44,905 bases of DNA, taken from positions 1 through 44,905 of IMG/VR virus record IMGVR_UViG_3300021438_000023. The stretch is one strand, 5' to 3'. This DNA is from a virus. The notes under the pieces were generated by a model. The model was not told the DNA's origin. It was given only the letters and a program-made list of their open reading frames with translations, and searched no databases. The position numbers were made by a program, and so were the translations under genes. Shown here piece by piece: positions 7,039 to 44,905 of the stretch (position 1 is the stretch's first letter; every line of letters begins with the position of its first letter).

Positions 7039-7049
7039 GCGGATTAACT

Positions 7050-7083
7050 GGGGTGGTACGAGAGTACCACTCCTTTATTTTTT
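7050..7083 (+). terminator. Rho-independent terminator after the capsid gene
   Basis: A 10-bp stem (7050-7059 with 7064-7073, one G-T wobble) is closed by a GAGA tetraloop and followed by TTTATTTTTT. It lies 11 bases after the capsid stop codon and ends just before the ribosome site of the next gene. It would cap capsid mRNA and reduce read-through into the downstream virion genes. Confidence 0.92.
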
Positions 7084-7092
7084 GGTGGGGAC

Positions 7093-12329: not shown

Positions 12330-15300
12330 ATGGCTGGAGTTTTTTCTAAGCACCGTTTCCAAGTATGGAACTCTACACAACATCCGTATAAGCATAACTT
12401 AGCAGAGTTTGCCTATGGGAACGACTCTTTACCTGGTGTAACGAACATTGAGCAGGCGATAGACTGGCTTTTGGCTGCTTTATACCCTCAAACTATGCCT
12501 TCAGTAGCTACTCCTGCGGATCTTCCGTTAGGTGGTGTGGTTACTAACACAGTAGCTACTCCTGCGGTATTTACTTTAGCTGGGCACTTATTTAAAAATA
12601 CAGACCTAGTTAAATTCTCTACAACGGGTACTTTGCCCACTGGTTTGTCAGTTGGACTTTCGTACTATGTAAAAGTAGTGGATGCTAATACATTCCAAGT
12701 TTGTTCTGATAAAGATTTGCTCCTTCCAGTAGCTTGTACTGACGTAGGTGTCGGTGCTCACTCTGTCGCTATGAAGAATAACTCTTATAAGGTTGTTCTA
12801 AATGATGGTGACGGGAAGGCTGCAAGTTACCGCTGGGAACAGCGTGAGGGTGAGGCCGTAGCTTCTTGGCATAAGATCTATGACATGGACTGGGGCCAGG
12901 ATTCAATCTTAGCTGCAGTTATGGACATGACCCAGGAGTGGTATGTAGCTAAGTATGGTAAGGATGATTTAGATCCAGCTGGTTCTCCTCTTGTAGGAGC
13001 CAATGCTGGTCAACACGTATACGGTGGTCTTAGTCCTAATACTAACCTTACTCTTCATGCCAATGCGGGAGATGGGACTGGTGCAAGCACTGGTTACGTT
13101 CAGGTGGATGATAATGTTCGTCCTACCGATGATAATTTATACGATTTAGGTACGATTCTTAAGAGATTCTACGCTTTATATTTGTCTAACTCAGCAACTG
13201 TTAACACGATGACTTTGGCAACCGGATCTATCACTGATAGCACTGGTGCGATTTCATTCGGCAACGAGAACTTAAGCACAACTGGAAATGTTACAGGAAA
13301 CACTCTTACCGCAATTACAAGCGCCCTTATTAACAGTACTTTGTCTCTTTCTTCTGGTTCTATCACTGATAGCACTGGAGCGATTGCGTTTGGAAACGAA
13401 AATTTATCTACAACTGGCGATATTACTGGTGCTACTCTTAATGCAACAACACAGGCGGTGATTGATGGAACCCTTACTATTACTAGCGGCTCCATTACTG
13501 ATTCTACTGGTTCTATTACTTTTGGAACAACAGGATTAGTAACTACGGGGACTGTACAGGGTGGAGATGCTACATTTACTAAGGTAAGTGTAGATAATTT
13601 AGCTCTGGATGTGAATACTTTATCCAGCACAAATGTGAATGGAGATATTCACTTAGATCCTAATGGTACAGGTAAGGTTAAGTTAGATGCGTCTACGGAT
13701 GTATCGAATGATCTAACTGTATTGGGCACTTCTCTTTTAGACGACGTGCAGGTAGTGAATGGTACGTTAACGACTACTGGTGTAGATCAGGATCTTACCT
13801 TTTCTCCCAATGGCCTTGGCTCTATCATCGTAGAGAAGGATGTACTTCCTTCTAGTCCTAATGCTAAGAGCTTAGGAAATTCTACAGACTTATTTAAAGA
13901 TTTATATTTAGCGGGAAATATCGGGGATGGTTCAACGACTATTTCTCAAGCGACTCTGCAGTCATTTAGGGCTGCGAATACTGGAGTAGCTACAGGCCAT
14001 TCTCTTTTCTGGGATGGTGCTAAATGGGTTTCTTCAGCTCCCGATACTGAAGTAGTGCACAACACTGTTTCAGGCCTAACTACTGGGGATGCTGGCCACA
14101 CTCAATTTGTTATGCTTCAAGGACGAACGGGTGGTCAGACAGTCCAGGGAGGGACTGCATCTACTGAGCATTTAGTATTAGAGTCTACTTCTCATGCTAC
14201 TAAGGGCTTAGTGAAGACTAAGGACTCTTTAGTTCCTAATACTACTGCAGCGTACACATCTCAGTGGGATGGTACTGACTTAGGTGGAAGTTCTAATTAT
14301 TTCAGAGATGTTTATACTAAGGGTGAATTTAAGGGTCTTAGAGTAGAGAATGTGGCTGTAGAGCCTGCTTTTTCTCCTCTAAATTCTGGTCGTTTAGTGT
14401 TCAACACTGTTGATGGTAAGATCAAGTACGACACAGGAACTCAGTGGAAGGAAGTTGGTAGCGGCACTGGTGGTGGCGGAGTTAACTGGATCACTTATGG
14501 TGATGCAGAAGCTGGAACTACTACTGGCTGGACAGTGACTGCCAATACTTCTGGAACGGCTGAGCCGGATGGAACATTTACTTTGTTCCCTGCGACTACA
14601 TGGACAGTAAGTTCTTCTTCTCCTCTATCTGGAACAAATAGTTACTTAGCTACTTTGAATCAGGCTGGTGAGCAGATTGTTTACGACTTCACTATAGATG
14701 ATGCTAATAAGTTTAGACGGCAGACTATTGATTTCGATTATACGATTGTAAGTGGTACTTACGCATCAGGAGATCTGTCTGTTTGGATCTACGATGTGGG
14801 TAACTCTACTTTCATTAGGGATGTTAGCCCTAAAAGTATCGCAGCTCATGGATTGCCCTCAGCGCATATGTTCTGTGAGTTTCAAACTACTGGATCAACT
14901 TCTTATAAGTTAGTTATCCATAGCAAGATAAGCACAGGTGCTGTTGTTAAGTTTGACGGTTTCTCTATTGCTCCAAAGAATAGAAGTTACACTCCAAATA
15001 TATCTGATTTAATATCATACCCAGGTTCTCCAGTTATTGGTGCTACTACGACAGCTCCAACATATACAGCTTATTCAGGTGAGAATCAGTGGAAATATAG
15101 TAAAAACGGAGATAAAGCAGCAATATCAATTTTTGTAGGATTTACATCTGTTGTTAGTGCTGGTTCAGGGACGTATTTATTTCCAATGCCATCAGGTCTA
15201 GTAATAGACTCTACAAAAATTAATGTAAGTACAGACCCTAATATAGCGACAAATATCGGAAGAATGTTTATTTGGGATGCAAATTCATCAAGCAAAAAAA

Positions 15301-31319: not shown

Positions 31320-31322
31320 ATA

Positions 31323-31400
31323 CTAACAAGCTTTCTTGGTAGTTTTTTTAGTAGAAGGTTTTTGTGTAGTCGCCTTCTTAACAGTTGCTTTCTTAGCCAT
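31323..31400 (-). CDS. 25-residue Lys/Thr/Ala basic peptide
   Basis: A tiny gene of 25 codons between the RHH gene and the polymerase gene. It encodes a peptide with nine or more Lys and runs such as KKATVKKATTQKP, ending KKAC, like the tail of histone H1 or a nucleoid peptide. A strong AAGGGGGA ribosome site precedes ATG (minus strand, 31398-31400). Its stop lies three bases before the polymerase start, so it may couple polymerase translation. Function unknown; it could bind DNA or act only as a coupling leader. Confidence 0.62.
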   Translation of the reverse strand: MAKKATVKKATTQKPSTKKTTKKAC

Positions 31401-31410
31401 ACTATCCCCC

Positions 31411-31629
31411 TTAGTAGTTAGAAATTAATGTCTCGATGCACTCTGATGCAGAGACATTATTTGCTTTGCTTAAGTTATTTAATTTTTCTTTCGCCTCTGG
31501 TGAAATGCGCACGTATAAAACTTCGTGACGATTACCAGAAGGTCTTCCTACAGGACGCTTAAAGTCAATACCGGGAACGGTGCTTTTCTTTCCTCGTCCA
31601 GAAAGAACTTTCTTATTTTCTTTACCCAT
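31411..31629 (-). CDS. Ribbon-helix-helix DNA-binding protein
   Basis: A 72-residue protein with a basic disordered N-terminus (residues 1-35) and an Arc/CopG-like ribbon-helix-helix core: EVLYVRISPEAKEKLNNLSK, then NNVSASECIETLI. RHH dimers bind short inverted or tandem DNA repeats with a beta ribbon. Its gene starts within the exonuclease gene (82-base overlap, different frame), with GGAGAT as ribosome site. It is the only clear RHH regulator in the window and a candidate to bind the dyads at 43300-43523, which is speculation. Confidence 0.78.
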   Translation of the reverse strand: MGKENKKVLSGRGKKSTVPGIDFKRPVGRPSGNRHEVLYVRISPEAKEKLNNLSKANNVSASECIETLISNY

Positions 31630-32264: not shown

Positions 32265-32567
32265 TCAGTTAGGGAGACCGAGCAAAGAGCTTATAGGATC
32301 CACTTCTATGTAGTTCCTAAGCACCCAGTCTAAATCATGCATATTATCTTCCAGGTCTTTATCGGTGAAAGTCAACGTGCAAAGTAGCATTTGGCCCTTT
32401 ATCATAACGTCGCTTATATGAGCAGAGGATTTCTTGGATCCTTTTTTAAAAAGAAAAGGGTTGCCGTACACAAGACTAGCAACCCTTACCTTCTCGGCGT
32501 TCTTCATGCCCTCAGGAAAATCTACTTCCACAATGTAGGGAACTTCTTCTTCCTGATCATCAAGCAT
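32265..32567 (-). CDS. Unknown protein of the replication cluster
   Basis: A 100-residue acidic protein (MLDDQEEEVPYIVEVDFPEG) with alternating hydrophobic strands (MLLCTLTFTDKDLEDNMHDL). Start ATG 32565-32567 shares a base with the upstream stop. Family not recognised. Tight coupling to the 253-residue gene upstream suggests a shared task in replication or recombination. Confidence 0.65.
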   Translation of the reverse strand: MLDDQEEEVPYIVEVDFPEGMKNAEKVRVASLVYGNPFLFKKGSKKSSAHISDVMIKGQMLLCTLTFTDKDLEDNMHDLDWVLRNYIEVDPISSLLGLPN

Positions 32568-33328
32568 TAAAACTTTTCACCTACATTCTTTGTGGCTGGA
32601 GCTGGGGCTTCTTGATAAACCTCCTCAACTACTTCAGCGTCTACTACAGCTTTGCCAGATTTGAATGTCTGGTACCACTTTAGTAGAGTAGGCTCTACCT
32701 CCGTAAACTTAATTGTAGGCTCAACTCCGGCCATTTTGAAAACAAAAAAGTTACCCTTTTCATTTTTAGTGTGCTCGGATTTTAAAGAGATTGTGAAATA
32801 AGCAGCGGGCTTACCAACATTTCTTGCTCTTAAAGCTACTGTAGAAATGTCTTGACCAGCCTTAAATCCTGTCATCTTAAATGAGATGATACATGGAATT
32901 GCAGAAGCGTCGTCTAGGTCTTTGTCCAGCATAGATAGAACATTGATAGACAGCACGTATCTAATCTTCTTGCCTTCATGCATGAACGGCTCTCTTGGTT
33001 GATTAGCATTGGCTGCAGTGTACTCTTCGATCTTAACGAACTCAAACTTTCCGTTGATCTCTTCTTCAACAACCCAGTTCTTGAAGATGTAAATTGGAAC
33101 GAACTTAAGAGTCTCACCCTTCTTCGCAAGCACCATACCAGTAACAGAATCAACCATTTCACCTGGCATTGCTTTGCCATCGGCTACTAGATCACTCTGT
33201 GCCTGCATAAGTAGAACGCGTGATATACGAACGTCCTTTGCTTCAACTTCCTCGCTACCCCAGGAAGCACTCATGTCTGTGGTCACTGCTAATGCACTTG
33301 TTTCTTTAATCGATACTTCTTTTTTCAT
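32567..33328 (-). CDS. Unknown conserved-looking replication-cluster protein, possible ssDNA-binding role
   Basis: A 253-residue protein. ATG at 33326-33328 follows AAGGAAG; an upstream in-frame extension has no ribosome site. The body contains RISRVLLMQAQSDLVADGKA and PGEMVDSVTGMV, then a beta-rich region (LKFVPIYIFKNWVVEEE) and a tail rich in Glu, Val, Pro and Ala. Proteins with a similar VLLMQAQSDLV...GE..DS.TG pattern occur next to replication genes in other phages. Location, the beta content and the tail suggest DNA binding, perhaps as an SSB substitute, but I see no OB-fold signature. Confidence 0.62.
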   Translation of the reverse strand: MKKEVSIKETSALAVTTDMSASWGSEEVEAKDVRISRVLLMQAQSDLVADGKAMPGEMVDSVTGMVLAKKGETLKFVPIYIFKNWVVEEEINGKFEFVKIEEYTAANANQPREPFMHEGKKIRYVLSINVLSMLDKDLDDASAIPCIISFKMTGFKAGQDISTVALRARNVGKPAAYFTISLKSEHTKNEKGNFFVFKMAGVEPTIKFTEVEPTLLKWYQTFKSGKAVVDAEVVEEVYQEAPAPATKNVGEKF

Positions 33329-33344
33329 ACTTCTTCCTTTCATA

Positions 33345-33767
33345 TTACTTCTGTCTAAAAGACAGAATTTGTTGTCTAGTCGGTTCACCAAGGCCTGGAA
33401 TTGAGAACATCAAGTTGCCAGCCTCTACTGCAGCTTCAGCCTCTCTACGATATAAACTATTAATCGTCTGGCTGTGTACTGTGATAGTAGATTCAAACAA
33501 GCCCCGATCCTTAAGCCAAGCAAAAAACTGTTCCCTTGACTCGGGGTCCTGTGGCACTCTAACTGTCTCTCTTACCTGCATAGAGATACGTCCTACTTTA
33601 CCAGCATATGAGCTGATCTCGTTCGTCTCTAACATTGCTAAAGCCTTCTTCTCTAATTCGTCTAACTTCTCGTTCACACGCTTAGATTCCTGCTTAACTT
33701 TATCACACTCTTCTCTCTGCTTCTGTATCTCTTCACAAATCTGTTCAAACTCAACAATTGTATTCAT
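33345..33767 (-). CDS. Coiled-coil protein, first gene of the replication operon
   Basis: A 140-residue protein: residues 1-48 form a charged coiled coil (EEIQKQREECDKVKQESKRV), then a compact domain (VGRISMQVRETVRVPQDPES, REQFFAWLKDRGLFESTITV). A coiled coil plus small domain is the layout of Gam-like or Gp157-like proteins that protect DNA ends or support recombination, but sequence identity is not established. AGGAGG precedes the ATG at 33767. It is the first gene after the promoter at 33794-33821, so it is probably made early and in quantity. Confidence 0.65.
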   Translation of the reverse strand: MNTIVEFEQICEEIQKQREECDKVKQESKRVNEKLDELEKKALAMLETNEISSYAGKVGRISMQVRETVRVPQDPESREQFFAWLKDRGLFESTITVHSQTINSLYRREAEAAVEAGNLMFSIPGLGEPTRQQILSFRQK

Positions 33768-37104: not shown

Positions 37105-37216
37105 CTCTCACTCCTTAAAGCGGCTTTCGGACATGAACTGGGGCCCCCAGATAGCTCCTTATCAACTTTTTAACGTCTTACGGATAACTAATGTCATAGT
37201 CCTACTCGCCTATATA
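37105..37216 (-). promoter_or_regulatory. Intergenic region with a CTGGGG dyad
   Basis: The 112 bases between two leftward genes hold a perfect 6-bp dyad, CTGGGG C CCCCAG at 37138-37150, and a short leader frame of eight codons ending in the ribosome site of the lipoprotein gene. No convincing sigma70 promoter was found. The dyad could be a protein-binding site or a small RNA stem. Confidence 0.4.
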
Positions 37217-37429
37217 TTAATACCTAACAATCTCAGTGAAATTTCCTTCTTTACCTGCTATTGCCTTAGTACCAAAAAACATTGCTGTTTCTATGTGGGT
37301 TTTAAATACCGCTTTTTCTCGACCTTCTGGCATTAACTCAAGAGCCTTTTCGCAGGCATCTGCCATTTTACTTTTTAATAAAGCAACCTCTTCAAATCCC
37401 TTTTCATTTAACTTGTGCGTATCGAACAT
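37217..37429 (-). CDS. Acb2/Tad1-like cyclic-nucleotide sponge candidate
   Basis: A 70-residue, two-helix protein. Residues 6-30 form one helix (KLNEKGFEEVALLKSKMADA) and 33-58 a second with MPEGREKAVFKTHIETAMFF. The pattern R-(E)-x-A-x-x-(K)-T-x-x-E-x-A-M-(W/F) in a short helical hairpin matches Acb2-type proteins, small phage hexamers that bind cyclic oligonucleotide or cADPR-type signals and block CBASS or Thoeris defence. The match is by pattern only. ATG 37429 follows AAGGGGA, in preference to 37453. The leader holds a predicted pseudoknot. Confidence 0.55.
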   Translation of the reverse strand: MFDTHKLNEKGFEEVALLKSKMADACEKALELMPEGREKAVFKTHIETAMFFGTKAIAGKEGNFTEIVRY

Positions 37430-37448
37430 ATTGTCCCCTTTTGTTATT

Positions 37449-37526
37449 CCCACAACTCACCCGTTAGTTGAACAAAGTCGGGCTAGGACTAATCCCTTTT
37501 ACTGGCGAGTGTGGGGGTTCAACTAA
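37449..37526 (-). ncRNA. Predicted H-type pseudoknot leader RNA
   Basis: Two interleaved stems. Stem A: TTAGTTGAAC (37464-37473) with GTTCAACTAA (37517-37526), 10 perfect pairs. Stem B: 37449-37461 with 37504-37515, 11 Watson-Crick pairs plus one G-U that pairs only in minus-strand RNA, with one bulged base. The order B', A', B, A makes a pseudoknot with nearly abutting stems and a 30-base loop. Stem A includes the stop codon of the upstream gene, and the 3' end on the minus strand lies 8 bases before the ribosome site of the Acb2-like gene. It does not fold as a tRNA. Confidence 0.55.
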
Positions 37527-37761
37527 ATCCTAATTTCCTATTGTATCTCTTCCTGCAGTACTCATCCCAGAACTCAGCAAAGTCTGGGTGACCAATCAAA
37601 ACAGGCTGCCAGTACATCCAATCAAAGCCGCACTTCTTGGCAGCAAGGACCGGGGACCAGCCCTCTATAAGTTGCTCTTTAAATCTTGGTATTAAAGCAA
37701 CGATATCATCCTTGTTTGTTCTCTTAAGAGTACGACTCTTCTTCTCTGGTGCTAGTAACAT
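37519..37761 (-). CDS. Small helix-turn-helix-like protein
   Basis: An 80-residue protein, basic at the start (MLLAPEKKSRTLKRTNKDDI), with helical segments IPRFKEQLIEGWSPVLAAKK and CGFDWMYWQPVLIGHPDFAE. The VLAAKKCGFDWMYW region looks like a turn between two helices as in small DNA-binding domains of phage regulators or TerS-like proteins. Family not recognised. Its stop lies within the predicted leader pseudoknot. Confidence 0.55.
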   Translation of the reverse strand: MLLAPEKKSRTLKRTNKDDIVALIPRFKEQLIEGWSPVLAAKKCGFDWMYWQPVLIGHPDFAEFWDEYCRKRYNRKLGFS

Positions 37762-44779: not shown

Positions 44780-44905
44780 CCGCTGACCCGGGGGGTGGGG
44801 GGTCTGGCGCGGGGGTTTGCTTGTAGTCTTTTATAAAAATTCACCCCGGACCCCGACCCAAACCCCTATGACGCACCATCCCGAGTGTGCGATCCCCCTG
44901 GTACT
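44780..44905. repeat. 126-bp terminal direct repeat, right copy
   Basis: Identical to bases 8-133. If the two ends overlap, the circular unit is about 44,779 bp and the terminase genes directly follow the palindrome and early genes at 44490-44730. No gene was found between 44673 and the repeat. Confidence 0.95.

Follow-up and report, generated by a model that had tools for sequence, protein, structure and literature searches.

A candidate RNA pseudoknot in the intercistronic leader of an Acb2-like gene in a viral genome

The minus strand of a viral genome of 44,905 nucleotides (the whole stretch of DNA analysed, hereafter the window) carries two interleaved stems, S1 and S2, at positions 37449–37526, between two leftward genes, the second of which encodes an Acb2-like protein. 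We tentatively favour a reading in which this element is a structured intercistronic RNA, private to the phage, whose stems together form a pseudoknot that would act in cis on the Acb2-like gene. Both stems are read directly from the sequence, at the minus-strand coordinates that a first-pass annotation of this DNA had given; formation of the pseudoknot, and any function, are what we infer. The stems and their surroundings, all on the minus strand, are:

37526–37517 (minus): 5′ arm of S1, UUAGUUGAAC, which includes the UGA stop (37521–37519) of the upstream ORF
37473–37464 (minus): 3′ arm of S1, GUUCAACUAA, forming 10 perfect pairs with 37526–37517
37515–37504 (minus): 5′ arm of S2, CCCACACUCGCC, whose partner is 37461–37449
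37461–37449 (minus): 3′ arm of S2, GGUGAGUUGUGGG, forming 12 pairs with 37515–37504, with one G-U and one bulged U
37474–37503 (minus): L2, inner loop of 30 nt that can itself form a weak hairpin (−3.5 kcal/mol)
37427–37440 (minus): translation start of the Acb2-like gene (ribosome site AAGGGG, start codon AUG), in a small local hairpin in every modelled state
37217–37429 (minus): Acb2-like gene, 70 aa, predicted member of a cyclic-oligonucleotide sponge family (PF24729 and structure match)
37519–37761 (minus): upstream ORF, 80 aa, no family, for which the only candidate relative matches very weakly (12.3 bits, E 0.005)
37105–37216 (minus): 112-nt gap 3′ of the Acb2-like gene, containing CUGGGGGCCCCAG, a near-palindromic hairpin that lacks a U-run; folding of the gap is ordinary (z −0.65)

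Two interleaved stems on a single strand are the arrangement of an H-type pseudoknot, and here they are connected by linkers of 1 nt (L1), 30 nt (L2) and 2 nt (L3), with a bulged U in S2 that was missing from the earlier description. The ribosome site of the Acb2-like gene (AAAGGGG) starts about 8 nt 3′ of S2, and S1 covers the stop codon of the upstream ORF, both as the first-pass annotation had reported. Scans of the 89-nt gap before the Acb2-like gene, for sigma-70-like promoters and for terminators, gave no match. A role for S1/S2 in frameshifting or readthrough was considered and rejected, since the stop itself lies inside S1 and inspection of the sequence showed no slippery heptamer before it. 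The S1/S2 pair is a real sequence feature, and the pseudoknot that it could form is plausible but unproven.

Compact interleaved pairs were ranked across the window by Turner stacking, with one bulge allowed and L1 and L3 together limited to at most 6 nt; the GC-rich ends of the window, where many interleaved stems occur, were left out of the ranking. Outside these ends S1/S2 ranks first, at −38.2 kcal/mol compared to −29.8 kcal/mol for the next pair, and it was matched by a compact pair in 0 of 20,000 local 120-nt shuffles and by an interleaved pair of any spacing in 10 of the 20,000. That both stems are nevertheless coincidental, occupying a gap left by gene gain or loss and having no RNA function, is a doubtful though serious possibility. 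The same score is attained in 7 of 79 whole-window, dinucleotide-preserving local shuffles (~9%), and 558 kb of other viral DNA contained five pairs as strong as S1/S2 (about one per 110 kb), one of these five lying below 52% GC; all six strong background pairs that we opened for context lie inside or overlap long open frames. The failure to find a homologue of the element, described below, also fits coincidence. Weighing against it, S1/S2 is a clear outlier within its own window, and restriction to intergenic, sense-strand positions (~2.6 kb of gaps on a crude gene map) lowers the chance to ~1%, a figure reached by post hoc multiplication. Statistical support for S1/S2 against chance is moderate, and comes from a single genome. 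An apparent twin at 12503–12567 (plus) was rejected as a repeated palindrome within a gene, and a search of the phage's own genome found no second copy of the element. At the ends of the record there is a 126-nt exact direct repeat (8–133 and 44780–44905), attributable to terminal redundancy or to circular assembly, which is very GC-rich compared to the 42% of the genome.

Nested folding of a 121-nt RNA from this region gave −30.5 on the sense (minus) strand, which is ordinary (z −1.18), and −24.1 on the antisense (plus) strand (z 0.05), the sense strand being the better of the two. A sense-strand RNA, as proposed in the first-pass annotation, is supported, but the argument that had been drawn from the single G-U pair is weak, because such a pair has about even odds of falling either way. 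In the nested ensemble the outer S2 pairs have a probability of ~0.98 and S1 is near zero, and S2 by itself accounts for the nested fold. This would suit a simpler reading, on the unlikely side in our judgement, in which only S2 is real, as an intercistronic hairpin (a plain stem serving, for example, as an exonuclease barrier or a spacer), S1 is a chance complement and no pseudoknot forms; by our own base-odds estimate, 45 kb should contain a few perfect inverted repeats of 10 bp whose spacer is <60 nt. The placement of S1 tells against this reading, as it abuts S2 within 1–2 nt on both sides, which puts the pair beyond all 20,000 local shuffles.

Energy does not decide between the two folds. 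A pknotsRG-like estimate for S1 and S2 with unstructured loops comes to about −18 kcal/mol, and inclusion of the inner hairpin with milder penalties brings it, by our own reckoning, up to about −28 kcal/mol, compared to −25.7 kcal/mol for the nested fold of the same 78 nt; on these rough values the pseudoknot would tie with the nested fold. On geometric grounds, linkers of 1 and 2 nt appear too short to cross helices of one turn, which disfavours a coaxial stack. In rigid A-form docking at native lengths, the full stems coexist side by side in an antiparallel orientation (~170 degrees) with the linkers extended to their limit, and a stricter setting of linker reach in this coarse docking is slightly exceeded, suggesting that a side-by-side pseudoknot would be feasible but strained.

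The identity of the downstream gene, proposed in the first-pass annotation, held up. Its product matches Pfam PF24729 (Acb2/Tad1 hairpin domain) at E 1.7e-7, with 31.8 bits over a cutoff of 27, and the closest solved chain is 9ptq, ‘Acb2 homolog 43’ (E 6e-30, with an alignment of relatives as the query). The sequence profile makes the gene a solid Acb2 relative, whose product, a predicted sponge, probably disarms a bacterial immune signal. For the upstream ORF, searches of viral contigs and phages found no relative beyond the 12.3-bit match.

We searched widely for relatives of the element. No Rfam family matches it at the gathering threshold, and a permissive search (E up to 10) returned only one chance match, outside the element. 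None of 22 Acb2-bearing loci (19 viral and 3 genome; 38–77% identity, some of them near-duplicates) has a comparable leader; most of these Acb2 relatives start within ~15 nt of the preceding stop and a few at 20–50 nt. A weaker interleaved pair (−24) is present in L074/L075, within the upstream coding sequence. Blastn in phage records detected no DNA homologue of the element, and a pattern comprising S1b and the start of S2b, scanned against 2.9 million viral contigs, gave 51 matches; in no case were the two complementary arms correctly placed. Relatives reached through the primase, helicase and polymerase are only distant (polymerase 37–44%, helicase up to 48% identity) and lack the leader; in a related phage, a divergent Acb2-like gene (L172, positions 1492–1710 of the 47 kb record to which L098 also belongs) overlaps the 3′ end of the polymerase gene and likewise has no leader. 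Nor did any of the ~170 loci examined yield a homologue of the element, which counts against the favoured reading. The first-pass annotation had held that homologous phages keeping the gene and losing the stems would speak against its proposal; the relatives found do refute a conserved control element of Acb2 genes, but not a lineage-specific one. A conserved Acb2 riboswitch is not supported by these sequences, and the element is possibly, as far as is visible, a private cis-acting intercistronic RNA of this phage.

The same results bear on the first-pass proposal of a translational riboswitch that senses a ligand and controls the Acb2-like gene, a reading that did not survive and that we consider exceedingly improbable. 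Compact pseudoknots are known among riboswitches, and both this general precedent and the position of the element, 8 nt 5′ of the ribosome site, would fit such a function. Opposed to it are the Rfam results and the absence of the element from every Acb2 locus found, together with the behaviour of the ribosome site: its pairing (37440–37427), modelled with nested folds only, is nearly the same for the free RNA, for an RNA with a ribosome at the upstream stop and for one with its pseudoknot arms taken up, which argues against a simple site-hiding switch. Nor is there an arm complementary to the ribosome site, except for a weak CCC/GGG. In E. coli, termination-reinitiation coupling is near zero by a gap of 38 nt (PMC10666635), and by analogy the Acb2-like gene, 89 nt from the preceding stop, is probably under its own, independent initiation control.

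The genes from 38822 to 33825 run leftward and overlap or lie ≤50 nt apart except at two gaps, the only ones longer than 50 nt in the 33.8–38.8 kb interval, which flank the Acb2-like gene (89 nt before it and 112 nt after). Relatives of the replication genes have no match to the Acb2-like small-gene block, except for one weak match to a metalloprotease-like gene (L093), and in L065 and L066 the primase adjoins the helicase with no such block between. With two flanking gaps and a block missing in relatives, the Acb2-like gene looks like an accessory cassette, which suggests that the gene and both gaps were inserted together and brought their own leader. A DNA-level element (an insertion site, a protein-binding site or a trace of the cassette insertion) could draw on the same gaps and the same block-free relatives, as well as on 7–8-nt complements common to both gaps, but appears very unlikely: by our own estimate, complements of that length are close to what chance gives in gaps this long, the X-Y...X′-Y′ order is unlike that of a normal inverted repeat, and the genome holds no second copy.

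Elsewhere in the window, the genes at 33345–33767 and 32567–33391 (minus) have matches in Pfam to the gp33- and gp34-like families of phage Pam3, hinting at a replication module akin to that of Pam3-type phages. The 228 nt at 31320–31547 (minus) that separate an exonuclease-like gene from the DNA polymerase gene have a more stable fold than their shuffles (z −2.3), include a strong hairpin in the region of GUCUCUGCAUCAGAGUGCAUCGAGAC, and may also hide a short lysine-rich ORF. A 54-nt gap at 7039–7092 (plus) has a strong fold (z −4.1) and might be a terminator at the end of a likely virion gene.

Under the favoured reading of a pseudoknot-forming leader, the element would be a structured intercistronic RNA within a leftward polycistronic message. 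Provided that this RNA is made, nested thermodynamics makes S2 near-certain, and S1 would join it to give the pseudoknot, with two helices of about one turn each lying side by side, joined by the 1- and 2-nt linkers. A ribosome terminating at the upstream stop would, judging by its footprint size, unfold S1 along with most of S2, and the structure, re-forming in the interval before the next ribosome, would separate Acb2 initiation from upstream translation; alternatively, the refolded RNA may serve as a protein-binding platform, like the T4 gene 32 pseudoknot. Such action would be post-transcriptional and in cis, bearing on translation of the Acb2-like gene or on stability of its message, and its likeliest role would be to insulate or modulate Acb2 initiation or message stability. 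A bolder proposal, in which a counter-defence gene stands under its own leader pseudoknot of unusual geometry, and ribosomes ending the preceding gene unfold it so that sponge output tracks translation of the operon, strikes us as improbable. The post-transcriptional timing and dosing of phage immune-blocking proteins is little studied, and an Acb2 gene with a leader RNA would, if true, provide a concrete and easily tested case; it is currently a single-genome prediction, of modest interest unless S1 is confirmed by probing.

Among known systems, Acb2 (anti-CBASS 2) genes are the family to which the downstream gene belongs, and its relatives there have no such leader. In the repY-repZ system of IncI plasmids, translational coupling depends on a pseudoknot. 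The element resembles that system in that translation of the upstream frame terminates within the structure, which ribosomes would consequently remodel, and differs in that the candidate pseudoknot gives no sign of activating initiation, the gap measures 89 nt and no antisense RNA was found. The closest analogue, which the element appears to resemble without being a member, is the gene 32 leader pseudoknot of phage T4. The gene 32 operator consists of a ~28-nt coaxial pseudoknot 67 nt upstream, together with A+U-rich repeats (PMC3014915, PMC535899), whereas the candidate here spans 78 nt, with an S1 of 10 bp and an S2 of 12 bp, and lies 8 nt from the ribosome site; its 1- and 2-nt crossing linkers are hardly long enough for full coaxial stacking, no autoregulator is known for it, and UUAAA repeats are absent from the downstream stretch AAUAACAAAAGGGGACAAU. 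In T4, T2 and RB69 the leader pseudoknot is a translational operator 5′ of the ribosome site, its 5′ part in T4 overlaps the preceding frame, segG, and it is absent from phage RB49, giving a patchy distribution (PMC3014915, PMC535899). The element described here shares these traits: it would be a pseudoknot in a phage message, placed 5′ of the ribosome site of one gene, overlapping the preceding frame and patchily distributed.
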